A DNA stretch of 64,000 nucleotides from an uncultured Mucilaginibacter sp. (GTDB taxonomy: Bacteria; Bacteroidota; Bacteroidia; Sphingobacteriales; Sphingobacteriaceae), in NCBI RefSeq assembly GCF_946479965.1, contig NZ_CAMLHX010000010.1:33564-97563 (forward strand), read 5' to 3'. This document shows, piece after piece, positions 22,073 through 56,765 of the stretch. A program made the position numbers and the translations under genes. Numbering within the stretch: the stretch's first letter is position 1; the number at the start of each line of letters is the position of its first letter. Under the pieces are notes generated by a model. It saw only the letters and a list, made by a program, of their open reading frames with translations. It did not search any database and was not told the origin of the DNA.

Positions 22073-22131
22073 TAGGCTGTTATCCCCACAAAGATATTAT
22101 TTGCTACAGTTTATACTAAACTCTGTTAAAA

Positions 22132-22761
22132 TTAAAATGAATAACCCAATGATAAAGCGAAACCGCTGTTTTTAGCCCTGTTTTGAGCAGAGTTATCATT
22201 AGCTGCTTTATCAAAATCAAAAACATAGTTGCCAATAAGGCTTACATTGCTGTTAAAATTATAACCTAGCCCAACGTGGCCCCCTATAGCGTTTTTTCTT
22301 AAACCATCGGTACTGGTAGTGTTTGATGTTGCTGCGCCATTTACATAGGTATCTGACGATTGCGACAACAAAAATGCCACCTGTGGGCCCGCAAACAGGG
22401 TAACATCCGGCGAAGGTTTAAAACCTACTAGCAGCGGTACATCCAAATAATTAAGTCGGGTCTTTAATTCGCCGGTTGTTGAACCTATAGTCCCTTTTAC
22501 GTTACCGCCTTTTTGGGTATATAATACCTGTGGCATAAATGATAGTTGACTTGCCAGCGGCAGATCGGCCATTAAACCGCCCTGGAAACCGAAACGGTAA
22601 TCGTAGTCATAAGTAGCGCCCCCTGTTTCCAGTTGGCCCAACGTCATGTAATTAGCGCCGGCCTTAATACCTATACGTGGCCTCGTTGATTGTGCCGTGG
22701 CCGTGTTTAGGCCTGCTGTTAGCGTTAATCCTAATGCTGATAGTATGATTAGCTTTTTCAT
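22132..22761 (-). CDS. Small porin-like outer-membrane beta-barrel protein (paralog 1)
   Basis: From Met at 22761 the protein is 209 residues with signal peptide KKLIILSALGLTLTAGLNTATAQ. The mature part matches the outer-membrane-protein beta-barrel domain (IGIKAGANYMTLGQ, LYTQKGGNV, GFALSLGYSF with terminal Phe). The longer frame from 22800 adds 13 residues before the signal and is rejected. It is clearly paralogous to the gene at 22987 (shared YMTLG, GFQGG, VLYTQKGGN and NSGFAL motifs), so the pair arose by tandem duplication. Confidence 0.8.
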   Translation of the reverse strand: MKKLIILSALGLTLTAGLNTATAQSTRPRIGIKAGANYMTLGQLETGGATYDYDYRFGFQGGLMADLPLASQLSFMPQVLYTQKGGNVKGTIGSTTGELKTRLNYLDVPLLVGFKPSPDVTLFAGPQVAFLLSQSSDTYVNGAATSNTTSTDGLRKNAIGGHVGLGYNFNSNVSLIGNYVFDFDKAANDNSAQNRAKNSGFALSLGYSF

Positions 22762-22918
22762 TTTTTTATGATTTGTGTAATAAAATATTGGACAGGCCAA
22801 GCCAATATCTATGCCAAAGCCATAATTAGTAATGCTTAAAAAGGACGGAAGTATGCCGTTAGACTATGATAGTGAGGTACTTATTGGGAAGTATTTATGC
22901 CTTGTCGCATACATCAGA

Positions 22919-22976
22919 AACGGGCCAACTTCGTCTGTTTTACTATCCAAACGAAGCGGCCCGTTAGGGTTTTTTT
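22919..22976 (+). terminator. Intrinsic terminator oriented on the plus strand
   Basis: Arms AACGGGCC (22919-22926) and GGCCCGTT (22958-22965) form the base, and CTTCGT/ACGAAG extends the stem. The hairpin is followed on the plus strand by a seven-T run (22970-22976); on the minus strand only TTTCT follows. It lies between two leftward porin genes, so its orientation is unexpected. Confidence 0.7.
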
Positions 22977-22986
22977 GTAATGATTA

Positions 22987-23613
22987 TTAGAATTTAACGC
23001 CTAATGTAAGAGCGAAACCGCTGTTTCTTTCACCGGTGTCAGCATTGCTTTTTGCGGCGTGGCCAAAATCAAATGCATAATGGAGGTTTACACCCACTTT
23101 GTCTGTTATGGTATAACCGGCGCCAAGGTTGCCGCCAACAGCAACTTTTTTCAAATCGTCGGTTTTTGTATCGGTATTAGTACCCAATCCTGTAACAGTT
23201 ACAACTGTTTTTTGCGACATCAAAAATGAAGCCTGTGGACCTACGTAAAACGAAAGTTTAGGATTGGCTTTAAAACCAAATAAAACCGGAAGATCAATGT
23301 AATTAACCTGCGTTTTGGCATCAAAGGTAACACCGCTTATGGTTGCTGCAGCATTGCCACCCTTTTGGGTATACAATAACTGGGGTGCGAAAGAGACACT
23401 TTCTGATATAGGCGTCTCAATAAAAATACCACCTTGAAAACCCGGGCGGAAATCGTAATTAATAGATATGCCGTTGCTTGATGCCGCGCCCAAAGTCATA
23501 TAGGTAAGGCCGGCTTTAACGCCAATGCTGGTTTTTGATTGTGCGTTGGTTTTAGTTGTGAAGCCCAAAACAGCTGCAAATGCCACTGCGCAAGAGAGGA
23601 TAAGGTTTTTCAT
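22987..23613 (-). CDS. Small porin-like outer-membrane beta-barrel protein (paralog 2)
   Basis: The 208-residue protein has a signal peptide ending TNAQS and the same barrel layout as its neighbour (IGVKAGLTYMTLGA, FRPGFQGGIF, LLYTQKGGN, NSGFALTLGVKF). These OmpA/PorT-like small barrels are common and of general or unknown function. A TATCTTCG element about 40 bp upstream of the ATG is a one-mismatch -7 box. Confidence 0.8.
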   Translation of the reverse strand: MKNLILSCAVAFAAVLGFTTKTNAQSKTSIGVKAGLTYMTLGAASSNGISINYDFRPGFQGGIFIETPISESVSFAPQLLYTQKGGNAAATISGVTFDAKTQVNYIDLPVLFGFKANPKLSFYVGPQASFLMSQKTVVTVTGLGTNTDTKTDDLKKVAVGGNLGAGYTITDKVGVNLHYAFDFGHAAKSNADTGERNSGFALTLGVKF

Positions 23614-23735
23614 TGTAATAAAATTAAGGGTTTAAAAATTGGAACGAAGATAGCGTTTTCTTTACCTAAGTACGTAGTTTAGGTGTGTAGGAGCGCTAAA
23701 CGGGTGGTTTACAAGGAATAAAGTTTGCATTACAA

Positions 23736-24587
23736 TTAACTTTCTTGCCTAAATCTTTCCAATAAACCGCGAACGTCCATTTTTGCGTCCAGGTCCTCGG
23801 CGTCTGACAGGTCGGCTGCATCACTGTCTTCTTCAAAATCAAGGGGGGAATATTTAAAGATTTCCCATTCGCCTTTATTGTATTCCAGCGCAGTAAGGTT
23901 CTCTACCCAATCGCCCGAGTTAAGGTAAAGCACCTTGCCCGGATTATCTGTAGCTACTATCTCGCGCATTTCGGCCTGGTGGATGTGGCCGCATATTACG
24001 TATTGATATTCTTTGCTTACGGCAAGGTCGGCAGCTGTTTGTTCAAACTGGTTAATGAATTTTACAGCGTCTTTAAACCGGGCCTTTATTTTTTTAGAGA
24101 AGCTCATCTTTTCGCGCCCCATGGCGGTAAGCAGCCAGTTGGTAAAGCTGTTAAGCAGTATCAGTGTATCATAACCAACAGCGCCTAATTTGGCCAGCCA
24201 TTTAGAGTGTTGCATGGTAACATCAAACACATCGCCATGAAAGATCCATGCTTTTTTACCATCGATATTAAGGACAAGCTTATTTAATAGTTGGAACGAG
24301 CCCAGGTTCATATCTGCAAACTTGCGCAGCATTTCGTCGTGATTACCGGTTAGATAATACACCGGAACACCATCAGTAACAAACTTTAATATCCTGCGCA
24401 CCACTTTCATGTGTGCCTCGGGCCAGTACGATTTGCTGAACTGCCAGATATCAATAATATCGCCGTTAAGAATAAGTATTTTGGGTTTTATGCTTTTTAG
24501 ATATTTAAGCAGTTCTTTGGCGTGACAGCCATACGTGCCTAAATGCACATCAGATATAATTACGATATCAACTTCGCGCTTTGCCAT
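23736..24587 (-). CDS. LpxH-like UDP-2,3-diacylglucosamine diphosphatase family phosphoesterase
   Basis: This 283-residue calcineurin-like metallophosphoesterase has the full metal-binding set IISDVHLG, LNGDIIDIW, LTGNHDEM and CGHIHQAE. The layout fits the LpxH-related family that removes UMP from UDP-2,3-diacylglucosamine in lipid A synthesis; other members have different substrates, so the substrate call is by family. The C terminus has an acidic tail (EEDSDAADLSDAEDLDAK). No lpx genes are adjacent. Confidence 0.8.
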   Translation of the reverse strand: MAKREVDIVIISDVHLGTYGCHAKELLKYLKSIKPKILILNGDIIDIWQFSKSYWPEAHMKVVRRILKFVTDGVPVYYLTGNHDEMLRKFADMNLGSFQLLNKLVLNIDGKKAWIFHGDVFDVTMQHSKWLAKLGAVGYDTLILLNSFTNWLLTAMGREKMSFSKKIKARFKDAVKFINQFEQTAADLAVSKEYQYVICGHIHQAEMREIVATDNPGKVLYLNSGDWVENLTALEYNKGEWEIFKYSPLDFEEDSDAADLSDAEDLDAKMDVRGLLERFRQES

Positions 24588-24921
24588 TAATTAAAGGGGG
24601 ATAAAAGGCACTCCCGGTAATATTTACCGGCGCAATAAAGGGAAGTATAGCAGAGCAACTTTTATTCGTCGTCTTCGTCTTCATTAACTTTAAGTTCATA
24701 CGGACTTAAATAGAACACGCCAACTAATACAAGCAGCCCTATAACAACCATATACGATGTATACTCAAACATGATAAAAGGTTTTTACAAAGGTCTGTAA
24801 ATCAATTTAATTTAACGTTAAGACTCTGTTAAATGTAAAAGGTTTCATCTGTTGAAAAATATATTTTTTATGAACATGTTAACAGGGGGGAAAACATGTC
24901 TACCTTGCAATGATAGGATGA
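24588..24921. other. Intergenic region, 334 bp, with one small ORF
   Basis: Between the LpxH-like gene and the HAD nucleotidase gene, both leftward. It contains the 36-codon frame at 24662-24772 listed separately. The remainder is AT-rich, and I see no hairpin or RNA gene in it. Confidence 0.6.
24662..24772 (-). CDS. Small single-span membrane protein, 36 residues
   Basis: An ATG at 24772 opens a 36-residue frame: a short polar start (MFEYTSY), a hydrophobic segment MVVIGLLVLVGVFYL (about residues 8-22), and a strongly acidic tail ending NEDEDDE. The organised polar-hydrophobic-acidic layout is typical of real small membrane proteins rather than chance. It resembles in size and layout small cytochrome-oxidase accessory or phage-shock-type peptides, but I cannot name a family. 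Confidence 0.45.
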   Translation of the reverse strand: MFEYTSYMVVIGLLVLVGVFYLSPYELKVNEDEDDE

Positions 24922-26262: not shown

Positions 26263-26291
26263 ATAGCGATGGGTATAAAACCCATCGCTAT
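26263..26291. repeat. REP palindrome A, upstream of the RAYT gene
   Basis: Perfect 12-bp arms ATAGCGATGGGT (26263-26274) and ACCCATCGCTAT (26280-26291) enclose a 5-nt AT loop. The same core occurs next to and beyond the transposase gene. Confidence 0.9.
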
Positions 26292-26336
26292 AGCGGTAAC
26301 CGCGTTTTAACCCATTATTATAACGGCATTTTCTTT

Positions 26337-26367
26337 AATAGCGATGGGTTTTATACCCATCGTTATT
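26337..26367. repeat. REP palindrome B, upstream of the RAYT gene
   Basis: Arms AATAGCGATGGGT (26337-26349) and ACCCATCGTTATT (26355-26367) pair fully if one G-U is allowed, with loop TTTAT. It ends 43 bp before the transposase ATG. Confidence 0.9.
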
Positions 26368-26410
26368 GAGAATGAATAATTTTCAATATTTTAGATGTAA
26401 ATCTAAACCA

Positions 26411-26830
26411 ATGCCGCAAAGTTATTCTTCAATATGGGTGCACCTTATCTGGTCCACAAAAAACCGAGAGCCAATTCTTACACCCACATTAAAAAGCGAA
26501 GTTTACAGAGTGATCAACGAAATAGCAGCAGACCATGAAATATACCTCGACTGCATTAATGGTGTAGAAGACCACGTTCATCTTTTAGTGCGATTAAGAA
26601 CAGATCAATCAGTTGCCGATATAGTTAAAACGATAAAAGGCAGTTCGTGGGAATATTTTAAAAATGATCCGGAGAAATATATTACCTGGCAAGATGGTTT
26701 TGCGGCGTTCAGTGTCAGCCCGAATGAATTAAAAAGGGTGCGAGGTTATATCTATAACCAAGAGAAACACCATCGCGATAAATCTTTTACGGATGAAGTA
26801 AAAGAGATAAAAAAGGCTCAAAAACAATAA
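26411..26830 (+). CDS. REP-associated tyrosine transposase (RAYT, IS200-like)
   Basis: From ATG 26411 this is a 139-residue Y1 transposase of the IS200/IS605 superfamily. It shows the N terminus SIWVHLIWSTKNREPIL typical of COG1943, the HUH metal motif HVH (residues 55-57) and a catalytic-Tyr helix with YIYNQEKHH (Tyr113, Gln117). No TnpB or IS ends are present; instead it is flanked on both sides by REP palindromes, the hallmark of domesticated RAYTs that nick and move single-stranded REP hairpins. All key residues are present, so it may be active. A frame from 26366 is longer but atypical. Convergent with dxs. Confidence 0.9.
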   Translation: MPQSYSSIWVHLIWSTKNREPILTPTLKSEVYRVINEIAADHEIYLDCINGVEDHVHLLVRLRTDQSVADIVKTIKGSSWEYFKNDPEKYITWQDGFAAFSVSPNELKRVRGYIYNQEKHHRDKSFTDEVKEIKKAQKQ

Positions 26831-26831
26831 A

Positions 26832-26886
26832 CCCTCATACAAAAATAGCGATGGGTTTAAAACCCATCGCTATTTTTGTATGAGGG
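26832..26886. repeat. REP palindrome C, 55-bp perfect palindrome between RAYT and dxs
   Basis: Two 27-bp arms (26832-26858 and 26860-26886) are perfect reverse complements around a single central A. The REP core (AGCGATGGGTTT) is extended outward by AAAA/TTTT and CCCTCATAC/GTATGAGGG. It begins 1 bp after the RAYT stop codon and ends 7 bp before the dxs end. With T-runs on both strands it would also act as a two-way terminator. Confidence 0.95.
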
Positions 26887-29773: not shown

Positions 29774-29800
29774 GCGACGCGTTTTAAACCCATCGCTATT
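29774..29800. repeat. Degenerate REP palindrome D
   Basis: The right arm AACCCATCGCTATT (29787-29800) is intact; the left arm GCGACGCGTT (29774-29783) differs from the REP core GCGATGGGTT at two positions. It lies between the convergent ends of scpA and the DUF1569 gene. Confidence 0.6.
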
Positions 29801-30259: not shown

Positions 30260-30301
30260 GATGAGCGGGTTTGTTCAAATATAGGGTTTAGAATGAATTA
30301 C

Positions 30302-32056
30302 TTATCCCTTCCAAACAGGCAGGTGGAAATAAAATTTAGCGCCCTCGCCCGGCTTACTTTTAACACCGATGCTGCCGCCCTGGGCTATAATAAACTCCTT
30401 TGATATGGCCAGGCCAAGACCACTGCCGGTTTTATTTTGCCCATCCGCAGGTATCTGGAAGTAGCGGTCGAACAGGCGTTCCTGGTATTGCTCTTCAATG
30501 CCTTTACCCTTATCTGTAACAGAAAATTCAAGCGCACCATTTTTTGCAAAAGCCTGTACCGTTACTGCTGAACCCGAAGGCGCGTATCTTACAGCATTCA
30601 GCAAAAAATTAATAAGCACCCAGGCTGTTTTTTCAACATCGGCGTACGCGGCAGGCAGTTCTTCCTCAACTATTTGGTCTATGGTAACATGCTTGCGTTC
30701 GGCATCTTGCCTAACCGCGTTAATGGCATAATTAACTATGGTGTGTGCATCCGCCTGAACAAAGTTTAGCCGCAGGTTACCGGTCTCTACTTGAGCCATA
30801 TCCAATAGTTCAAAAGTGATTTTTAGCAGGCGTTCGGCATCGTCAGTCATATTTTTTGCCAATTGCTGCTGCTCTGTATTTAATTCGCCCACTCTTTGGT
30901 CGGCAAGCAGCTTAAGGCTCATTTTTATGGAGGAGATAGGCGTTTTTAACTCATGCGACAGCGTTGCTATAAAATTAGTTTTAGCTGTATCCTGCTCCTT
31001 AAATTCGGTGATATTCCGTAACACATAAACCTTCCCTGCAGGCATTTGCGTTTTGTTAATAACCTGTGTATGGTCGTCATGGTTAACCGGCACAAATATC
31101 TCGCGGGTCTCAATCTGAAAATGAAGCTCCTTGGAGTTCCTGGTTATTTTGATGAGCCTGTTCGCTTCATCACTACCAAACACCATAGTAAGGAGTTCAT
31201 TTTTGGCAGCTATTTCAGCAGCCGGCCGGCCGGTTATGTTTTTACCTTCAACATTAAAAAGCTTTTTAGCAGCCGTATTAATAAAGAGCAATTCACCGCT
31301 ATCGCTTATGCCGATTATCGCGTCGCGCATTTGCTCAACAATTGTCTCAATCCGTAAATTTTGGGATTGTATTTTGGATAGGTTATTGGTTTCCCACTCA
31401 TTTAGCCGGGCAGCCATCTCGTTAAAAGCATTTGCTACTTCGGCAAATTCATCATGGGTTTTAAACTCAATACGCTGTTTGTAATTTTTGCGGCCAACTT
31501 CGCGTATACCCCTTAACAACACATTCAGCGGGTCGGCAATATAGCCGGGAAAGTTGAAAAAGAAACTGACCAATACCAGAAGCGTGAAAGAAGCAACCAA
31601 TCCCAGAAAAAACAAAGCCTGGCTTTCCGTTTCCCGGGCGGTGTTACTTTTACGCACTATGGCGTTCATGTTTAGTAGTTCAATAGCTTGCAGGTGATTT
31701 CGCAACTTGCTGACTAGTAACTGACTTTGCTGCGGAATTGGCTCGGCCTGTAAAGAATCAAAGGTTGCGCGCAACTGCCTTACTGCTTTGTCTTCACCTT
31801 CTTCAGTTATATTTTTTTCTTCATCTTTAAGCAGGCTGTTGAATAAGGCCTCATTTTTTTTATTAAGCGGAAGTTGATTTTCGTCAATAACCGCCCGCAT
31901 TCCACGCACATAATCCAACGATTTGTAGTTGTCTTTTAATATGACCTCAGCACTGTTTGATATTCTGTTGATGCAGTATAACGCTGCAACTCCAAATGAC
32001 ATCACTACAATAAACAAAAACCCAAATCCCAGCCGGAGCTTATTTTTAACTTTCAT
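30302..32056 (-). CDS. Membrane sensor histidine kinase with HAMP and PAS domains
   Basis: The 584-residue protein has a membrane segment at about 10-30, a periplasmic helical sensor region to about 145, a second membrane segment (about 148-168), HAMP (about 170-225), PAS (about 230-350), and a kinase core with H box TLSHELKTP (His368), N box LLNAVRYAP (about 487), G1 DKGKGI and G2 GSGLGLAI. It follows kup by 48 bp on the same strand and is presumably the partner of the sigma-54 response regulator encoded just upstream of kup, though the two genes are split by kup. The ligand is unknown. Confidence 0.9.
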   Translation of the reverse strand: MKVKNKLRLGFGFLFIVVMSFGVAALYCINRISNSAEVILKDNYKSLDYVRGMRAVIDENQLPLNKKNEALFNSLLKDEEKNITEEGEDKAVRQLRATFDSLQAEPIPQQSQLLVSKLRNHLQAIELLNMNAIVRKSNTARETESQALFFLGLVASFTLLVLVSFFFNFPGYIADPLNVLLRGIREVGRKNYKQRIEFKTHDEFAEVANAFNEMAARLNEWETNNLSKIQSQNLRIETIVEQMRDAIIGISDSGELLFINTAAKKLFNVEGKNITGRPAAEIAAKNELLTMVFGSDEANRLIKITRNSKELHFQIETREIFVPVNHDDHTQVINKTQMPAGKVYVLRNITEFKEQDTAKTNFIATLSHELKTPISSIKMSLKLLADQRVGELNTEQQQLAKNMTDDAERLLKITFELLDMAQVETGNLRLNFVQADAHTIVNYAINAVRQDAERKHVTIDQIVEEELPAAYADVEKTAWVLINFLLNAVRYAPSGSAVTVQAFAKNGALEFSVTDKGKGIEEQYQERLFDRYFQIPADGQNKTGSGLGLAISKEFIIAQGGSIGVKSKPGEGAKFYFHLPVWKG

Positions 32057-32104
32057 AACGAATAGTAAATATCGTGGTAAAAATTTATTAAACAGATGCC
32101 TGAT

Positions 32105-34072
32105 CTAGACCGGCACCTGTTTTAAGGTAACATTGGTAGCCGGGGCAACCACAAGGGGTATTTTTTCTATATGTGTTTCGCTGGTATCCAATCCAAATGC
32201 CTTAGCATCCGTTTGTGCCAGTTTTTTTATGGCGAAGTAGCTGTTCAATATAAACCCATCCTTCACGCTGAATTCGTTGGCGTACGACAGGAATTTCTCC
32301 AGTATCACAAACTGAAAATCGGCGGCCAGGTTAAAATGTTTAAGCGATGGATAACGACTGGTTATGTTAAGCCCCTCGTTGGCTACCATATCCTGCACAA
32401 CCTTGCGGAAAAGCACATTAATGCGCGGCTGAATACGGAAGCCCAACCTGAACTCCACCCTGATCACCCGGTCTTGCTCCAGTTCTTCAACAGTATATTC
32501 CATGGTGTAAGGTTCGTCGGTGCGTTCTATGTGTACAAACCAGTAAACGTTGGCTCTTTTAGGCTTGCGACTGAAAATAGAGTAAATGATCTTCTGTTCT
32601 ATCTGCTTGCTGTTGTTGGCTTTTGTCAGGTAAATAAGATGTGTTGCATATTGCGGTACTGACGTATCGGCGCTCAAAGCATGCAAAATGGGTATTTGCT
32701 CTTTAAGGTCCACAAAAGTAAGAAAGCGGTTATTGATCTTGCGGGCACGGAACCAGATGTACATGGTGAAGAACAGCCCAACCTCAAACAGTACAAAAAA
32801 TAATCTGTGTAATATTTTAACGGCATTGGCTATAAAGAATGAGAACTCCACTGTTAAAAACACGCAGGCTATGGTTGTAACCAGCCACACCGGCCAGTGC
32901 TTTACATAGCGCATAAAGTAGTACATTAACATGGTGGTCATTATCATTGCGATGGTGATGGAGAAACCATAGGCGGCCGTCATTGAGCCAGACGTTTTGA
33001 AATATAAAGTTACCGCCACACAGCCAACGCAAAGTATCCAGTTGATGCTGGGTATATAAATTTGCCCGCGGATGTTGGATGGATACTTGATGGTTATGCG
33101 CGGCCAGAAATTCATGCTAACGGCTTCGCTGATCAGAGTAAATGAGCCGCTTATCAGCGCCTGACTGGCAATAATGGTGGCCAGCGTTGCAATAATAACC
33201 GCCGGTATTATAAAGCCCTGCGGCACTATGGCGAAGAATGGATTGACGCCATTTAGCCCTGCGGGATTAACATTCATTAACACCCACGCTCCCTGACCAA
33301 AGTAATTAATTAAAAGCGCTGTTTTTACGAAGATCCAGCTTACCTGGATGTTTTTTCTGCCGCAATGCCCCAGGTCGGAGTAAAGCGCTTCGGCACCTGT
33401 GGTACATAAAAATACTGCGCCAAGTAGCCAAAAACCTTCGGGATGCAGTACTAAAAGATCATATGCATAAACAGGGTTCAGCGCTTTAAAGATCTGCGGA
33501 TATTCAAAAAGCTGAACAGCGCCCAGCATAGCCAACATCCCAAACCAAACCAGCATTATCGGTCCGAATGATGATCCAACTACCTTGGTGCCAAACTGCT
33601 GAAAGAAGAAAAGCAGCACCAGGATGGCAATTACGATGATGAGAATAACATCGTTACCCGGGACAATAAAACGGGACAAGGCAGGCACCTGGGCCAAGCC
33701 TTCAATAGCTGATGTTACCGAAATTGGAGGGGTAATTATGCCATCAGCTAACAGCATCGCGGCGCCAATAATTGCAGGTGTTGCCAGCCGTTTTCCGTAG
33801 CGTTTTACCAAGGCGTACAGCGAGAAGATTCCCCCTTCGCCGCGGTTATCGGCTTGTAGGGTTATCAGGATATATTTAAATGTGGTTTGTAAAGTAAGCG
33901 TCCAAAACACACATGATAGCGCCCCCAAAACCATAAACGGACCGGCGCTTTTGCCTTCGGTTAAAATGGTTTGAATGGTATAAAGGGGAGATGTGCCTAT
34001 GTCGCCAAAAATAATACCGAGTGTAACCAACATGCCCCCTGCCGAAACTTTCTGAATAGATGATGAATTCAT
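32105..34072 (-). CDS. kup: KUP-family potassium uptake transporter
   Basis: Kup takes up K+ together with protons across the inner membrane. From Met at 34072 it is 655 residues, with the signature GIIFGDIGTSPLYTI at the first membrane helix (about 17-31), about 12 membrane helices to residue 435, and a cytoplasmic C-terminal domain of about 200 residues. A frame from 34123 adds 17 residues, but a sigma-54 promoter (34100-34114) lies within that extension, so 34072 is the real start. It is transcribed into the histidine kinase gene 48 bp downstream. The sigma-54 activator gene precedes it. Confidence 0.95.
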   Translation of the reverse strand: MNSSSIQKVSAGGMLVTLGIIFGDIGTSPLYTIQTILTEGKSAGPFMVLGALSCVFWTLTLQTTFKYILITLQADNRGEGGIFSLYALVKRYGKRLATPAIIGAAMLLADGIITPPISVTSAIEGLAQVPALSRFIVPGNDVILIIVIAILVLLFFFQQFGTKVVGSSFGPIMLVWFGMLAMLGAVQLFEYPQIFKALNPVYAYDLLVLHPEGFWLLGAVFLCTTGAEALYSDLGHCGRKNIQVSWIFVKTALLINYFGQGAWVLMNVNPAGLNGVNPFFAIVPQGFIIPAVIIATLATIIASQALISGSFTLISEAVSMNFWPRITIKYPSNIRGQIYIPSINWILCVGCVAVTLYFKTSGSMTAAYGFSITIAMIMTTMLMYYFMRYVKHWPVWLVTTIACVFLTVEFSFFIANAVKILHRLFFVLFEVGLFFTMYIWFRARKINNRFLTFVDLKEQIPILHALSADTSVPQYATHLIYLTKANNSKQIEQKIIYSIFSRKPKRANVYWFVHIERTDEPYTMEYTVEELEQDRVIRVEFRLGFRIQPRINVLFRKVVQDMVANEGLNITSRYPSLKHFNLAADFQFVILEKFLSYANEFSVKDGFILNSYFAIKKLAQTDAKAFGLDTSETHIEKIPLVVAPATNVTLKQVPV

Positions 34073-34099
34073 GTATTTGTATTTTTTGATACAGGCTTG

Positions 34100-34114
34100 G
34101 CAAGCCTTGTTCCA
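34100..34114 (-). promoter_or_regulatory. Sigma-54 promoter of kup
   Basis: On the minus strand the sequence is TGGAACAAGGCTTGC. It has GG and GC separated by exactly 10 bases and the flanking TGG..TTGC of the -24/-12 consensus (TGGCAC-N5-TTGC), with one mismatch in the first block. The -12 element lies about 28 bp upstream of the kup start codon. The adjacent gene encodes a sigma-54 activator. Confidence 0.75.
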
Positions 34115-34183
34115 AAAAGACAAAAAGTGACTTTATGCAGTCGAAACGCGGTTTTGGTGTTTAAGAACACTGCGTGACCCTAC

Positions 34184-34217
34184 CATTTTGGAAGGGTGCT
34201 GTTTCATTTTGGAAGGG
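34184..34217. promoter_or_regulatory. Direct repeat, probable upstream activator sites for kup
   Basis: CATTTTGGAAGGG occurs at 34184-34196 and again exactly at 34205-34217, a period of 21 bp or two helical turns. The pair lies roughly 70-115 bp upstream of the kup sigma-54 promoter, the usual distance for enhancer sites of NtrC-type regulators. Confidence 0.65.
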
Positions 34218-34302
34218 CAGGAAAATTAAAAAGAAGCGGCGGGCAATGTGATTCCCCTCTCAAGAGGGGAGTCGCTCGGGCCATATTCATTAGAAAGCCT
34301 AA

Positions 34303-35655
34303 CTACCCCAGCCTATACTCATCCAACTTACGGTACAGTGTAGTAACGCCTATCCCCAGCAAGCGTGCCGTCTCCGTTTTGTTGCCGCCGGTATAAACGA
34401 GTATTTTTTTGATGTGTTGCTTTTCAACCCCGGCTAAATCGATAGGGTTATCATCGGCAGTTCCAATTGTAAAGTTGGACGGTAAAAGCGCCGGTGATAA
34501 CGTATCCGAATCAGCCAGTATAACAACGCGCTCCATTACGTTTTTAAGTTCGCGTATATTGCCTTTCCATGGGTTGCCTGTTATCAATTTAATAAAATCA
34601 CCATCCATTTTAACGGCTGATTTACCCATTTTTAAAGAGAACTCTTTTAGGTAATACTCCGCCAAAAGCAAAACGTCAGCCTTCCTGTCGCGCAGTGGCG
34701 GCAGTGGTATGTTAAAAACAGAAAGCCGGTAAAAAAGGTCCATTCTGAAGTTCCCCGCATCGGCATCTTTTTGCAGGTCGCGGTTGGTGGCTGCTATTAT
34801 GCGGATATTAACTTTTGTGGTTTGTGTATCGCCTAACTTTATGAAGCTTTTGTTCTCAATAAGTCGCAGTAGGCGGGCTTGCATCTCCGGCTTAATCTCT
34901 CCAACCTCATCTAAAAATAACGTGCCGTTATGCGCTTCTTCTACCAATCCTTTTTTATCCTTTAAAGCCCCTGTAAAGGCACCTGCTTTGTAACCAAAGA
35001 GTTCGCTTTCCAACAGATCACCGCTAAAGCTGCTGCAGTTTATGGCGACAAATGGCTTAGCCGCACGGTCGCTGCCCTGGTGAATTGCCGACGCGAAAAC
35101 CTCTTTCCCTGTCCCTGTTTCGCCTGTTAACAAAACGGTAGTATCAGTAGCGGCCACTTTTCTGGCAAGCGTTATTGCATCAACAATTGCGGGCGATGTG
35201 CCTATTATATTATCAAAACTAATATTGGCTTTTTCTTTCTTTTTTAACAACGCCGCATTGTACTGAACGGTCGCTTTCTCAAAAGCCTGGTTAACCAGCG
35301 GGATTATTTTATCGTTATCATCGCCCTTGGTAATATAGTTGAACGCACCATTCTGAATGGACTGTACCCCATCGGCAATGGTGCCGTAAGCGGTAAGGTT
35401 GATCACCTCAACAAAAGGTTTTATTTGCTTAATGGCCTTTACCAGCTCCACGCCGTTGGCGTCGGGTAATTTTACGTCGCTTATAACCAATACAACATCT
35501 TCATGATGTAAAATACTCAGGCCCTCTTTTGCCGTATAAGCCTGCAGCACATTAAAACCCTCCAGACTTAAAATACGCGACAACAGATCATTGAGCTTTT
35601 TCTCGTCATCAATAATTAAAACAGATGTTAGCGCAGGCGACTTTTTTGTTTCCAC
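34303..35655 (-). CDS. NtrC-family sigma-54-dependent response regulator
   Basis: The 450-residue protein has a receiver domain (Asp60 in VISDVKLPD as phosphorylation site, Lys110), an AAA+ domain with Walker A GETGTGKE (178-185), the sigma-54 contact loop GAFTGA (225-230) and DEVGEI, and a C-terminal Fis-type helix-turn-helix (TETARLLGIGVTTLYRKLDEY). It should activate sigma-54 promoters after phosphorylation. The start codon is GTG at 35655, with a near-consensus TAATTTTA box ending 4 bp upstream. The most obvious target is kup, whose sigma-54 promoter lies 190 bp beyond this gene's end. Confidence 0.95.
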   Translation of the reverse strand: METKKSPALTSVLIIDDEKKLNDLLSRILSLEGFNVLQAYTAKEGLSILHHEDVVLVISDVKLPDANGVELVKAIKQIKPFVEVINLTAYGTIADGVQSIQNGAFNYITKGDDNDKIIPLVNQAFEKATVQYNAALLKKKEKANISFDNIIGTSPAIVDAITLARKVAATDTTVLLTGETGTGKEVFASAIHQGSDRAAKPFVAINCSSFSGDLLESELFGYKAGAFTGALKDKKGLVEEAHNGTLFLDEVGEIKPEMQARLLRLIENKSFIKLGDTQTTKVNIRIIAATNRDLQKDADAGNFRMDLFYRLSVFNIPLPPLRDRKADVLLLAEYYLKEFSLKMGKSAVKMDGDFIKLITGNPWKGNIRELKNVMERVVILADSDTLSPALLPSNFTIGTADDNPIDLAGVEKQHIKKILVYTGGNKTETARLLGIGVTTLYRKLDEYRLG

Positions 35656-35766
35656 GATATAAAATTAGGATGATTTATGATGAATGACACCTTATGCGCA
35701 TTTATTTCGTCATGTGTTATAATATTCTTAAGTCAACTAGGTTATAAAAGACGCTAAATCATCACA

Positions 35767-36642
35767 ATGAAAAGAGCCCGCATTAAATTTTTGATCTTAT
35801 ATTTTTTAACTTTTGCCCCTTGTTATTTAAAAGCGCAGATTAAACTACAGAGCCATGTAATTGATGCCGTCACAAAGACGGCTATCCCCTTTGCTACTAT
35901 CGGTGTTAAAAACAGAATTATTGGTACTGTGGCTGATTCAACCGGAAGGTTCCAGTTATCTATATCCACCGATAGTATTGGGCCCAATAACCCTGTTATA
36001 GTAAGTTGTATCGGGTATACTTCTTTAGAAATAAACGCGCGGGACCTTAAAGACATACAGCAATCAATTGCTTTATCGCCATCTACCACTTTGTTAAGCC
36101 AGGTGGCGGTAAAACCGGCAAAGGTTAAGGTGAAAACGTTTGGCAGAACCGGCAGCTCGGCGTTTATGAGTACGAAAATGATATCTGAGCATAACCATAC
36201 CAGCGACGAGTTAGGCAACGAAATAGGAACGGTAATTAACATAGATAAAAATTGCAGGCTCACCGCGTTTAACATGCATGTTATATTTAACCATTTTGAT
36301 AACGTTAAGTTCCGACTAAATATTTACAGCGTAAAAGACGGCTTACCCGACACGCTGATTATAAAGGATAATATATTATTAGATGTTGGTCACGTCCGTC
36401 AGAAATGGATCAATGTCGATCTTACAAAATATCAGATCTACCTGGAGGGATACGAAAAGGTGGCGGCGGCTATTCAGTGGTTAAAAAGTACAGCCGGGAA
36501 TGATCCTCAAAAATCTTTCAATGTAGCAGCCGTTCCGGCTATTGGCCATTACATCTTATTCAGGGATAAAAGCCAATCAACCTGGTTAAAAGTAGGTGGC
36601 AATTTAAGTATGAATTTTATGGCTGAGGTTTATAAAGACTAA
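35767..36642 (+). CDS. Secreted carboxypeptidase-like regulatory domain protein
   Basis: The 291-residue protein begins with a signal peptide ending CYLKAQIK and then a CarboxypepD_reg-like domain (SHVIDAVTKTAIPFATIGVK ending VSCIGYTSLEI) of about 90 residues. The C-terminal half has beta-rich sequence with aromatic residues and no recognised family. Such domains often mark cell-surface proteins of Bacteroidota. Function unknown. It is divergent from the response regulator gene. Confidence 0.7.
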   Translation: MKRARIKFLILYFLTFAPCYLKAQIKLQSHVIDAVTKTAIPFATIGVKNRIIGTVADSTGRFQLSISTDSIGPNNPVIVSCIGYTSLEINARDLKDIQQSIALSPSTTLLSQVAVKPAKVKVKTFGRTGSSAFMSTKMISEHNHTSDELGNEIGTVINIDKNCRLTAFNMHVIFNHFDNVKFRLNIYSVKDGLPDTLIIKDNILLDVGHVRQKWINVDLTKYQIYLEGYEKVAAAIQWLKSTAGNDPQKSFNVAAVPAIGHYILFRDKSQSTWLKVGGNLSMNFMAEVYKD

Positions 36643-36644
36643 CG

Positions 36645-38099
36645 CTATCGCGCTTTTATCCCAAAAACATCTTTCAAAGCTTTTTTTGCGGCATGATAGC
36701 CGCACATGCCATGCACACCACCACCCGGAGGGGTAGATGACGAACAGATATATAGTCCTTTTGCCGATGTTTTGTACGGCGACCAACGCAGGGCGGGGCG
36801 AGTAAATAGCTGTTTTATATCCTGAATGCCGCCGTTAATATCTCCGCCAATGTAGTTGGGGTTATATTCCTGCATCTGCGCGGTATTCAAGGTATGGCGC
36901 TCAATAATAATGTCTTTAAAGCCCGGGGCAAAGCGCTCCACCTGGTTCTCGATGGCAGCTGTCATATCTTTAACTGAACCATTTGGCACATGGCAATACG
37001 CCCAGCCGGTATGCATACCCTTCGGTGCGCGGCTATGGTCAAACAAGCTTTGCTGGGCAAATAATACAAATGGTTTTTGTGGGGTCTTACCTTCGCTTAC
37101 CGCCAATTCTGCATCAGCTATTTCGGCAAATGTACCGCCCAAATGTACAGTACCCGCGCCGTGGCAAAAGTCATTAACAAAAGGTGCCGGTCCGTCAAGC
37201 GCCCAATCTATTTTATAAACACCCATGCCATAGCGGTAGCGGTTTAGCTGCCATTTGTAAATAGCCGAGAACTTATGCCCTGCAATTTGCAGCATTTGTT
37301 TTGGTGTTACATCAAATAGTACAGCGTGCGATGACGGCAATTGCGATAATGAAGTGATATACATATTCGTCTCCATAACGCCACCTAAAGAGATAAAATA
37401 AGAGCCCAACGCCGCTGCTATTGATGCCGAACCGCCTTTTGCCACCGGCCAGCCTTTCAAGTGGGCACCGGTTATAAGCGCCAACGCGATAGCCGCTGTT
37501 GACCGGTTGCTTAGCGGCTGCATACTGTGCGCCGCCATACCGCCAAACAAGGCCTTTGCCCGTTCGGTAGCGAATAAGGCGGACATTTTTTCTGCACTTT
37601 GCAGTCCTTTTAAGCCAAATTCCGCCATTTCCAACGGATGTTTAGGAAAATGGAACGGGCCCAATACGTCATTCTCAATTAGCGGCCAGCTTTTAACAAC
37701 CGGCGATATAAGCTTCTTGTAAGCCTCTTCGTCGCCGGGCAAATATTTGGCTGTAGTTTGTATAGACGAATGCAAAACGCCGGCGCTGCCATCGTCAAGC
37801 GGATGCGCGCAGGCTACGGATGGATGAATGTACTCTAACCCATGGTCTGCCAACGGCAGGTTCCTGAAAAAAGGAGAATTGATGGCTAGGGGATGAATAG
37901 CCGAGCAAACATCGTGCTTAAAGCCGGGCAGGGTAAGCTCCTTGGTAGCCAGTCCGCCGCCGATATTGGCCTTGCCTTCAACGATCAAAACCGAAAGACC
38001 GTTCAGCTGCATTAATATAGCCGCTGCCAGGCCATTCGGACCGGCGCCAACTACAACGGCGTCGTAATCGCGTTTGGGTAAAGATTCAAAATCAGGCAT
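36645..38099 (-). CDS. CrtI/PYROXD2-like FAD-dependent oxidoreductase
   Basis: The 484-residue protein has an N-terminal dinucleotide-binding motif VVVGAGPNGLAAAILMQ followed by GGGLATKE, and a C-terminal flavin motif SSSTPPGGGVHGMCGYHAAK, as in phytoene dehydrogenase-related proteins (COG1233). Relatives include carotenoid desaturases and the poorly known PYROXD2 group; the sequence DAVVVGAGPNGL and GKANIGGG start suggest the latter. No carotenoid genes are adjacent, so the substrate is open. It ends 2 bp after the convergent neighbouring gene. Confidence 0.8.
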   Translation of the reverse strand: MPDFESLPKRDYDAVVVGAGPNGLAAAILMQLNGLSVLIVEGKANIGGGLATKELTLPGFKHDVCSAIHPLAINSPFFRNLPLADHGLEYIHPSVACAHPLDDGSAGVLHSSIQTTAKYLPGDEEAYKKLISPVVKSWPLIENDVLGPFHFPKHPLEMAEFGLKGLQSAEKMSALFATERAKALFGGMAAHSMQPLSNRSTAAIALALITGAHLKGWPVAKGGSASIAAALGSYFISLGGVMETNMYITSLSQLPSSHAVLFDVTPKQMLQIAGHKFSAIYKWQLNRYRYGMGVYKIDWALDGPAPFVNDFCHGAGTVHLGGTFAEIADAELAVSEGKTPQKPFVLFAQQSLFDHSRAPKGMHTGWAYCHVPNGSVKDMTAAIENQVERFAPGFKDIIIERHTLNTAQMQEYNPNYIGGDINGGIQDIKQLFTRPALRWSPYKTSAKGLYICSSSTPPGGGVHGMCGYHAAKKALKDVFGIKAR

Positions 38100-38207
38100 A
38101 AAGGGTTCAGCTCAGCATAAAAAATAAACAGTTAATGCTAAACAATTATAAGCTGAAATGTTCGAAAGAAAAAGTGGCGAGGGTTGTTGCTGCCGCTCGT
38201 CTATTGA

Positions 38208-38349
38208 CTCACCCGACTTCGCTGCGCTGGTCGACCTCTCTCCGGCTACGCCGCAAAGAGGTTGGGTTTGGTTTTTCTTAAGCGATAGGATCCCCTCTTT
38301 CCGCCGCAGGCGAAGAGAGGGAAGGGCGAGCGAAGCAAGACCGGGTGAG
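38208..38349. repeat. Imperfect inverted repeat element of about 140 bp
   Basis: Left arm 38208-38261 and right arm 38294-38349 both begin or end with CTCACCC/GGGTGAG and with AAAGAGG/CCTCTTT, and between these share long complementary blocks (for example around CTTCGCTGCGC and GCGAGCGAAGC). The loop between is about 32 bp. It fills most of the gap between the oxidoreductase and the PLP enzyme gene and ends 4 bp before the latter's stop codon. Confidence 0.65.
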
Positions 38350-38353
38350 TAAA

Positions 38354-39586
38354 CTACCCCAGTGCCGCAGCAAAATCTGCTATCAGATCATCCTTATCCT
38401 CAATACCTATCGAAAGTCGGATCATGTTATCTGATATGCCCATCTCGGCGCGTTTCTCTGCGCCCAACTCGTTAAATATGGTGTGTGCTACAGGGATAGA
38501 CAAAGTACGCGTATCGCCCAAATTGCTTGACTTTACTACCAGTTGCAACTTGTTTAAAAACGCGAAGCAATCCATGTTCTCCGCCAGTTCAATGCTCATT
38601 AAAGTGCCGTAACCAGAAAAGAGTTTTTTTGCCAACCCGTGCTGCGGGTGATTTTCCAATCCGGGGTAAAATACTTTTTTAACATTAGGATGCACTTCAA
38701 AGTACGATGCCAGCGCCATCGCATTATCGGTTGACCTGTCCATGCGCAACGCCAATGTTTCGGCACCAATTGATATATAGTGAGCTGCTTCGGGTGCCAT
38801 TGTGCCACCTGCGTCGCGCAGTCCTTTTTTTCTTATCTGGGTGATGCCCCATTTTTTAACGTCGCCTTTTTTGTATACGTCGTAAATGTTGGGGTAAGTG
38901 CCCCAATCAAACAGGCCCGTATCAGTAACACAACCACCCAAAGCATTGCCATGACCGCCTATGTTTTTGGTTAGGGAGTTAGCCACAAGTCCGGCTTTAA
39001 CATTTACCGGATTAAATAAGTAAGGGGTGGTCATGGTATTATCTACCATATATAAAATGCCTTTTTGTTCGCACAGGTTGCCAATAGCTTCCAGGTCGGC
39101 TATTTGTGTAGCCGGGTTGGCAATGGTTTCAACAAACACCATGCGGGTGTTGGGTTTTAAAGCATTTTCAACATTGGCTACTGCGGTGGCATCAACAAAA
39201 GTAATGTCCAAGCCCAGATCCATGTACGATTGAAACACGCTGCGGGTATTGCCAAAAAGGTAAGAACTGGCCACAATATGGTCGCCCTGTTTTATCAAAG
39301 CCAATACTGTGGAAGCTATGCCTGCCATGCCTGTTGCAAAGCCAACAGACGCAAAACCATTCTCCATTTGCGTTACCTTGTGCTCCAACGCGCTAACAGT
39401 AGGACTGCCCTGGCGCGAGTACGCATAGCCGCTCGTTTTATTCTGAAAAACATCTACCAGGTCCTGCACATCATCATAACCAAACGTTACCGAAGTATGG
39501 ATGGGTTTATGCAAAGCGCCATGCTCCGGTTTTTGTAAACGGTCTGAGTGCAGCAGGGTAGTAGTAAAGCCTTTTTTTGTTGTCAT
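38354..39586 (-). CDS. Cystathionine gamma-synthase family PLP enzyme
   Basis: This 410-residue Cys/Met-metabolism PLP enzyme has YSRQGSPTVSALE, the PLP-ring region ASSYLFGNTRSVFQ, VDNTMTTPYLFNP, and the Schiff-base Lys in VANSLTKNIGGHGNALGG. The sequence group includes O-acetyl/O-succinylhomoserine sulfhydrylase, methionine gamma-lyase and cystathionine gamma-synthase; specificity cannot be told by eye. It starts with a signal-free cytoplasmic N terminus and stands alone. Confidence 0.85.
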   Translation of the reverse strand: MTTKKGFTTTLLHSDRLQKPEHGALHKPIHTSVTFGYDDVQDLVDVFQNKTSGYAYSRQGSPTVSALEHKVTQMENGFASVGFATGMAGIASTVLALIKQGDHIVASSYLFGNTRSVFQSYMDLGLDITFVDATAVANVENALKPNTRMVFVETIANPATQIADLEAIGNLCEQKGILYMVDNTMTTPYLFNPVNVKAGLVANSLTKNIGGHGNALGGCVTDTGLFDWGTYPNIYDVYKKGDVKKWGITQIRKKGLRDAGGTMAPEAAHYISIGAETLALRMDRSTDNAMALASYFEVHPNVKKVFYPGLENHPQHGLAKKLFSGYGTLMSIELAENMDCFAFLNKLQLVVKSSNLGDTRTLSIPVAHTIFNELGAEKRAEMGISDNMIRLSIGIEDKDDLIADFAAALG

Positions 39587-39703: not shown

Positions 39704-39732
39704 ATAGCGATGGGTTTCAAACCCATCGCTAT
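39704..39732. repeat. REP palindrome E, complete copy remote from the RAYT gene
   Basis: Perfect 14-bp arms ATAGCGATGGGTTT (39704-39717) and AAACCCATCGCTAT (39719-39732) surround a single C. It stands alone in the intergenic gap, 13 kb from the transposase gene. Confidence 0.9.
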
Positions 39733-56751: not shown

Positions 56752-56765
56752 AGCGATGGGTTTAT
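56752..56765. repeat. Half REP element F
   Basis: AGCGATGGGTTTAT matches the left REP arm but no right arm follows. It lies between the nucleotide-sugar operon and waaA. It may be a remnant or chance. Confidence 0.3.

Follow-up and report, generated by a model that had tools for sequence, protein, structure and literature searches.

REP-like palindromes as probable partners of an IS200-like subclass 1.2 transposase in Mucilaginibacter

Introduction

The canonical partnerships between a HUH single-tyrosine transposase and a dispersed palindrome are the REPtrons, in which an enzyme of class 2 (TnpA-REP or RAYT) is associated with REPs that bear a GT[AG]G foot. The TnpA-Y1 survey of Quentin et al. 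2018 (PMC6006769), which defined these classes, records REPs for some divisions of class 2 and for class 3. Its description of class 1 is different. Elements of subclass 1.1 bear subterminal hairpins, and their transposases are marked by the signatures W[TS] and Y[IV]ENQ. The transposases of subclass 1.2 have the motifs DHVH (DH[IV]H), WQ and Y---Q--HH, occur in low copy number and belong to Bacteroidota or Cyanobacteria. Terminal structures of the IS200 type are as a rule missing in this subclass, and its entry for REP in the survey is 'no'.

Here, we analyse a transposase gene and its palindromes in the window, a stretch of 64,000 nucleotides from an uncultured Mucilaginibacter sp. The locus resembles the REPtrons in that a low-copy HUH/Tyr enzyme is flanked by palindromes, and in that these are dispersed between genes and each gene lineage has its own, as is described for REPtrons in PMC6006769. 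Unlike in REPtrons, the enzyme has the IS200-like signature of subclass 1.2 and falls below the cut-off of the RAYT model. A second comparison is with the insertion sequences IS608 and ISDra2. Here, the predicted fold and the kind of catalytic residues are the same and recognition of hairpins would be expected, but the gene is present in single copy, its palindromes are dispersed and solitary, and the signature motifs differ. Among the titles and abstract openings of the open-licence literature, we found no report that links REPs to subclass 1.2 or to Mucilaginibacter. We propose that transposase and palindromes are a cognate pair and that the enzyme mobilises, or once mobilised, its palindromes, a combined reading to which we assign a probability of roughly 0.72.

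Results and discussion

An intact transposase of subclass 1.2

The transposase open reading frame is intact from the ATG at 26411 to the stop at 26830 (Table 1). In an alignment of 44 sequences, comprising the window protein and 43 of 120 listed homologues, H55, H57, Y113 and Q117 are invariant. This bears out the original prediction of a whole HUH tyrosine transposase with HVH at residues 55-57 and a catalytic Tyr113. An alternative TTG start upstream, at 26366, appears improbable because M1 and P2 of the frame that begins at the ATG are nearly invariant in the alignment. The protein scores 89.4 bits against Pfam Y1_Tnp (PF01797). Its predicted fold (pLDDT 83.3) has the ISDra2 and IS608 transposases as its nearest solved structures, with an E-value of 3.6e-10 for ISDra2 TnpA in the structure comparison and of 1.0e-6 for the REP-bound TnpA of E. 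coli (4er8).

Table 1. Coordinates of the transposase gene, its catalytic codons and the palindromes in the window
Feature	Position	Strand	Description
TnpA-Y1 transposase gene, subclass 1.2 (clade I), HUH single-tyrosine	26411..26830	+	139 aa, stop included
HUH motif codons, H55-V56-H57	26573..26581	+	both histidines invariant in the 44-sequence alignment
Predicted catalytic Tyr113 codon	26747..26749	+	motif YIYNQEKHH; invariant in 44 aligned sequences
Palindrome A, upstream	26263..26291	.	12-nt perfect arms, 5-nt loop, core AGCGATGGGT/ACCCATCGCT
Palindrome B, upstream	26337..26367	.	13-nt arms, one mismatch
Palindrome C, downstream	26832..26886	.	27-nt perfect arms, 1-nt centre
Palindrome D	39704..39732	.	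solitary copy, 12.8 kb away

The gene had been predicted to encode a RAYT, a label that is not supported in its strict sense. With the NCBIfam model for REP-associated tyrosine transposases (NF047646), whose cut-off is 80 bits, the window protein scores 26.5, and the catalytic tyrosine stands in Y---Q--HH (YIYNQEKHH) rather than in the Y---NP of canonical class 2. Among genes of the same genus, this model gives 101.3 bits for a class 2 gene, 29.9 bits for a gene of the clade II introduced below and 35.3 bits for one of clade III. YxxxNP is found at the position of the catalytic tyrosine in seven of eight class-2-type genes examined from the genus, the eighth being truncated. The NCBIfam IS200 model is passed (70.9 bits, cut-off 55), and the subclass 1.2 motifs DHVH (residues 54-57) and WQ (93-94) are both present. 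In line with the subclass, the gene is of low copy number, with one gene of its lineage (clade I) in each of 15 genomes, and comes from Bacteroidota. A conserved C-terminal domain is a further trait of subclass 1.2; the window protein has 139 residues with a short C-terminal tail, and the median given for the subclass in the survey is 148 aa (PMC6006769). Judged by its sequence motifs, the window protein belongs to TnpA-Y1 subclass 1.2, a part of the IS200-like class 1, rather than to the canonical RAYTs of class 2.

The clade I gene is under strong purifying selection. Of 66 pairs compared, 13 gave a finite dS, and the median dN/dS of these is 0.067; the disrupted genes L007, L010 and L011 had been excluded. 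It is present once in each of its 15 carriers. A single copy per genome combined with strong constraint suggests a resident, domesticated enzyme and not a multiplying insertion sequence.

This bears on the possibility that the gene belongs to an ordinary IS200/IS605 element, of which the palindromes would be the terminal hairpins and the solitary copies the remnants of ends. Such an origin would agree with the passed IS200 cut-off, with ISDra2 and IS608 TnpA as the closest solved structures and with the subterminal hairpins described for subclass 1.1 elements in PMC6006769. We nevertheless regard it as very unlikely, given that the protein has WQ and YIYNQ in place of the subclass 1.1 signatures, that the near-identical multiple copies typical of IS200/IS605 are replaced by one strongly constrained gene per genome, and that the solitary palindromes are usually more numerous than the gene. 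Moreover, the same near-perfect palindrome is present on both sides of the gene, and none of the neighbouring open frames resembles tnpB, as judged by eye.

The disrupted genes make up 3 of the 15 and lie in other genomes. Two of them (L007 and L010) contain internal stops, and the third (L011) has no in-frame start and a stop just ahead of the conserved part. All three host genomes retain palindromes.

Palindromes at the locus and in the genus

Palindromes A and B to the left of the gene and C to its right were found where the original prediction had placed them, with a common core. The count of three was too low, as a fourth copy, D, had been overlooked; it sits in a stretch that cannot be aligned with the relative G012. 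The arms of palindrome C comprise the 14-nt family core and a 13-nt outer arm, which is specific to this copy and perfectly paired. As single-stranded DNA, all four palindromes fold much better than shuffled sequence, with z-scores of -6.85 (A), -6.78 (B), -13.17 (C) and -7.01 (D). When at most one mismatch is allowed, the window contains 13 instances of the half-site AGCGATGGGT, where 2.94 would be expected; none of 100 shuffles reached 13. Half-sites AGCGATGGGT without a partner arm were also seen, at 29788-29797 and 56752-56761.

Gene and palindromes were probably added at this place in the chromosome, since the genes that border the module are 685 bp apart in the window and only 68 bp apart in G012, which, among the 30 loci compared, is nearest to the window by its neighbouring gene (81.6% nucleotide identity). 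Among other genomes, G003, G005, G132 and G138 have the clade I gene at one common place, and G108 and G116 share a second. The gene names dxs and MiaE-like are presumptive and were assigned by us from sequence. The window aligns with G012 in inverted orientation from 4 to 24885 and directly from 24923 to 60179, and a rearrangement therefore ends near 24900. The stretches 22074-23899, 30290-34310 and 35621-38355 have no alignment to G012.

The core of the family, ATAGCGATGGGTTT-n-AAACCCATCGCTAT (core I), or a variant with a few changed bases, is present on both sides of the gene at all 14 close loci, whose proteins are 75-84% identical to that of the window; 13 of these are titled Mucilaginibacter and one 'Bacteroidetes bacterium'. 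Whole-genome counts were made in the genomes of relatives. Six genomes contain 7-36 instances each of the exact 25-nt core I and none of its reversed pattern. In the genus set, it was detected in 54 of 149 genomes, and the reversed pattern in none of the 149. A looser core I pattern extends the family to 84 of the 149; its reversed control matched once in six genomes. In a draw of 399 genomes from the family, the 35 with core I all belong to the genus set, and core I is absent from the 294 sampled family genomes outside it. The palindromes thus have the traits of a REP family, namely a length of 20-40 bp, a conserved core and a distribution that is not common to distant taxa.

Gene lineages and their own palindromes

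Genes related to that of the window were assigned to clades I, II and III. In the tree, for which internal stops in two clade I rows were replaced by X, clades I and II each form one side of a branch (support 100/99). They are perhaps sisters (94/78), next to two Larkinella genes (99/96), but the branches that join clades I and II are long and, as the tree program warned, their union may be spurious. Clade II proteins are 38-47% identical to the window protein. Clade III is not a single branch; 22 of its 23 members have Y---Q--HH and one is truncated.

The palindromes follow the gene lineages. Core I lies within 400 bp of the gene at 16 of 16 clade I loci, and on both sides at 13 of them because the scan overlooks palindromes with a mismatch; core II is found at none of the 16. 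Conversely, 15 of 16 clade II loci have core II, which consists of TCATTG-CCGT hairpins, and none has core I. Neither palindrome occurs at the 23 clade III loci or at those of seven distant relatives.

The same pattern is seen in whole genomes, in statistics that ignore shared ancestry. The clade I gene is present in 15 of the 149 genomes of the genus set. All 15 carriers contain exact core I, versus 39 of 134 non-carriers (Fisher p 5.9e-8), and the copy number is 2-36 with a median of 9 in carriers versus a median of 0 in non-carriers (p 3.4e-11). At least four core II matches are present in 37 of 37 clade II genomes versus 43 of 112 others. Low core II counts may be due to chance, since the reversed pattern of this shorter core gives 0-3 matches per genome. 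The clade II genomes were assigned by E-value and identity, the tree having placed only those represented in the 16 loci, and G121, with matches of 37-38% and no core II copies, was excluded; its inclusion would change the count to 37 of 38. The cross pairs, in which each palindrome is set against the gene of the other clade, give p-values of 0.60 and 0.18. Together with the absence of core I from the sampled family genomes outside the genus set, these numbers strongly support the predicted partnership between transposase and palindrome, and the prediction that the palindrome would recur elsewhere in the genome was borne out in every carrier among the relatives.

An observation that could speak against this partnership would be palindromes in relatives that lack the gene. 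This is partly the case, as 39 of the 134 non-carriers have exact core I, with up to 14 copies. Gene loss would explain the copies in genomes without the clade I gene. The absence of the gene from genomes with known REPs is put down to deletion (PMC3733652), and the copies in non-carriers therefore weaken the link but do not refute it.

Among these non-carriers are G017, with 13 exact copies, and G041, with 12; the single Y1 match in each of the two is of class 2. This would be expected if another host transposase, such as a class 2 RAYT, mobilised the palindromes and the clade I gene were merely a frequent neighbour. However, core I was found at none of the eight class-2-type loci examined, which were taken from 35 weaker PF01797 rows in 11 genomes; six of these genes are accompanied by other palindromes, four of them on both sides, and two by none. 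In addition, the genome-wide copy number of core I tracks the clade I gene. We consider a different mover very unlikely and retain the pairing of core I with the clade I enzyme. A third non-carrier, G043, has 13 exact core I copies and no match to the window protein.

Several further palindromes were noted beside related genes. The four class 2 (YxxxNP) genes with palindromes of their own on both sides are L270, L277, L278 and L269, and these palindromes are distinct. One such type (TTACGAAGTTTT..AAAACTTCGTAA) is also present upstream of the clade III gene in L238, where its paired outer arms are different. The clade II hairpins (L037-L051 and L271) combine the TCATTG foot with CCGTTGGCT or CCGTCCCAT stems, often form inverted pairs and reach 98 pattern matches per genome (G052). 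The Larkinella genes L015 and L016 (40-43% identity) have a palindrome of their own, CCCACGGTT..AACCGTGGG, with 16 and 11 copies per genome. It lies downstream of the gene in both and, as read by eye, often carries an ATCAG-like one-sided foot. L017, a Y---Q--HH relative from an Acidobacteria MAG, is followed by four GTAG-type hairpins in both orientations within ~650 bp downstream.

Feet and outer arms

Canonical REPs have a one-sided foot (PMC6006769). In the clade I palindromes, by contrast, nothing outside the stem corresponds to the GT[AG]G foot that stands 5' in class 2, and expectation-maximisation found no other one-sided 5' guide (likelihood -2958 versus a null mean of -2951). Instead, ATAG or GTAG is present at both palindrome ends at 81 of 109 clade I sites; the 104-109 sites counted as 'distinct' include orthologous sites of different species and are not fully independent. 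The clade II palindrome does carry a one-sided foot, TCATTG-CCGT. With ATAG or GTAG at both ends, the clade I palindromes resemble the double-foot REPs of subclass 2.4, in which a foot at either end is matched by its complement, and in departing from the one-sided GTAG rule they resemble the structures described as atypical in subclass 2.6 and in class 3 (PMC6006769). They differ from all three in the class of the transposase and in outer arms that extend with paired sequence specific to each copy.

At 24 of 81 full-core sites, at least four further bases are paired beyond the core, whereas random re-pairing of left and right flanks (1000 shuffles) yields a mean of 1.81 and a maximum of 7 such sites. 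When more loci were counted later, the excess was seen at sites around the gene (13 of 30) as well as at other sites (13 of 55). In many copies, the outer-arm sequence is specific to the copy while its pairing stays perfect. In an orthologous pair of G017 and G107, both outer arms have changed alike, from GTAC to ATAT.

Three origins of the outer arms may be considered: copying during the insertion reaction, insertion into existing hairpins, and later correction by template switching together with selection. At L129, G033 has the outer arms but no palindrome, as would be expected if insertion took place into a hairpin that was already there. At L138, extended arms are found in one species only. 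Because these two cases point in different directions, we leave the choice between the three open.

Comparison of sites between relatives

Mobilisation of the palindromes is our inference. A clean empty site with exact junctions, which would show insertion at the level of single bases, was not found when 9 of 13 G005 sites and 20 of 21 G017 sites were compared with relatives; the intergenic DNA has diverged too far for any junction to be fixed. The flanks of the G005 sites were searched in five relatives and aligned with G138 and G033, with G132 added for two sites. Five of the nine sites (L119, L125, L129, L136 and L138) have the palindrome in one or more relatives, some copies being split by an insert, and the other four (L121, L127, L135 and L137) have it in no aligned relative. 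Between G017 and its sister species G107, 5 of 20 sites are common to both, 7 are without a palindrome in G107 and 1 has a decayed look. One of the remaining sites is a chance protein-coding match within coding sequence, and six are not comparable.

Palindromes between genes and a possible role in transcription

Of 58 palindrome loci scored for their context, 53 are intergenic, and the remainder comprises two loci without a match near the centre, one duplicate and two inside open frames. Six loci had been omitted from this count: L120 and L128, which lie within open frames of 261 and 519 codons, L123 at a contig edge, and L131, L133 and L134, which surround the transposase gene. The nearest gene end is a 3' end for 40 of the 53 intergenic copies, and flanking 3' ends (n = 62) lie at a median distance of 26 bp versus 77.5 bp for 5' ends (n = 44), figures that stand without a random-position control. 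A further role of the palindromes as transcription-end or mRNA hairpins is probable and would help them to outlast the loss of the gene.

If this were their only role, the palindromes would be bidirectional terminators or mRNA hairpins maintained by the host, and the gene a chance passenger among them or a target of their regulation that does not move them. Apart from the bias toward 3' ends, the copies in genomes without the gene and the matching changes in both outer arms between G017 and G107 agree with such maintenance. So does a different hairpin that was read by eye at two (L126 and L149) of the seven sites that are palindrome-less in G107. However, host maintenance alone leaves unexplained why a palindrome stands beside the gene at every clade I locus, why clade II has a different palindrome and clade III neither, why an exact 25-nt core is common to many sites and why it is absent from the sampled family genomes outside the genus set. 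We therefore judge a purely host-maintained family unlikely, and prefer a cognate pair whose palindromes probably have a second use.

A model for the mobilisation of the palindromes

That the palindromes and the subclass 1.2 transposase are partners, in the manner of REPs and their enzymes, is highly probable in our view. That the clade I enzyme mobilises the palindromes, or has done so in the past, is somewhat favoured. In our model, the palindrome would fold into a hairpin when the DNA is single-stranded, for instance in the lagging-strand template. A TnpA dimer would recognise the hairpin and cut beside it with Tyr113, and the excised strand would be joined elsewhere, where it would seed a new copy. 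Recognition of the folded strand, cleavage by the tyrosine and strand transfer are carried over from the IS200/IS605 and TnpA-REP literature (PMC8266576).

In a bolder and rather unlikely extension, REP-mobilising enzymes would have a second origin within the IS200-like class 1 and would already have diverged into lineages whose palindrome specificity has switched, namely clades I and II and perhaps Larkinella. Insertion by clade I would then be hairpin-primed: the joined hairpin would snap back and, ahead of the second joining step, copy the target strand beside it, which would yield perfectly paired, copy-specific outer arms.

On sequence comparison, the REP partnership is extended to an enzyme subclass reported to lack REPs: unlike subclass 1.2 as listed in PMC6006769, clades I and II have cognate palindromes. 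Two subclass 1.2 lineages with palindromes that are not interchangeable, together with a third that has neither, provide natural controls for the questions of how such enzymes recognise hairpins and how a transposase comes to maintain a family of repeats. As the clade I palindromes are without a one-sided guide of the kind used by known REPs, they are directly informative about the choice of the cut site. Should the outer arms arise from the insertion reaction, they would record a reaction intermediate.

A small mobile element within the palindromes

The palindrome is itself the target of another small mobile element. An insert of about 215-235 bp with the terminal inverted repeats CCTTGAGTGTTCG...CGAACACTCAAGG splits family palindromes near their centre at L186 (G138:C316) and L193 (G033:C1 near 6186000), and a degenerate case is found at L182 (G138:C17).
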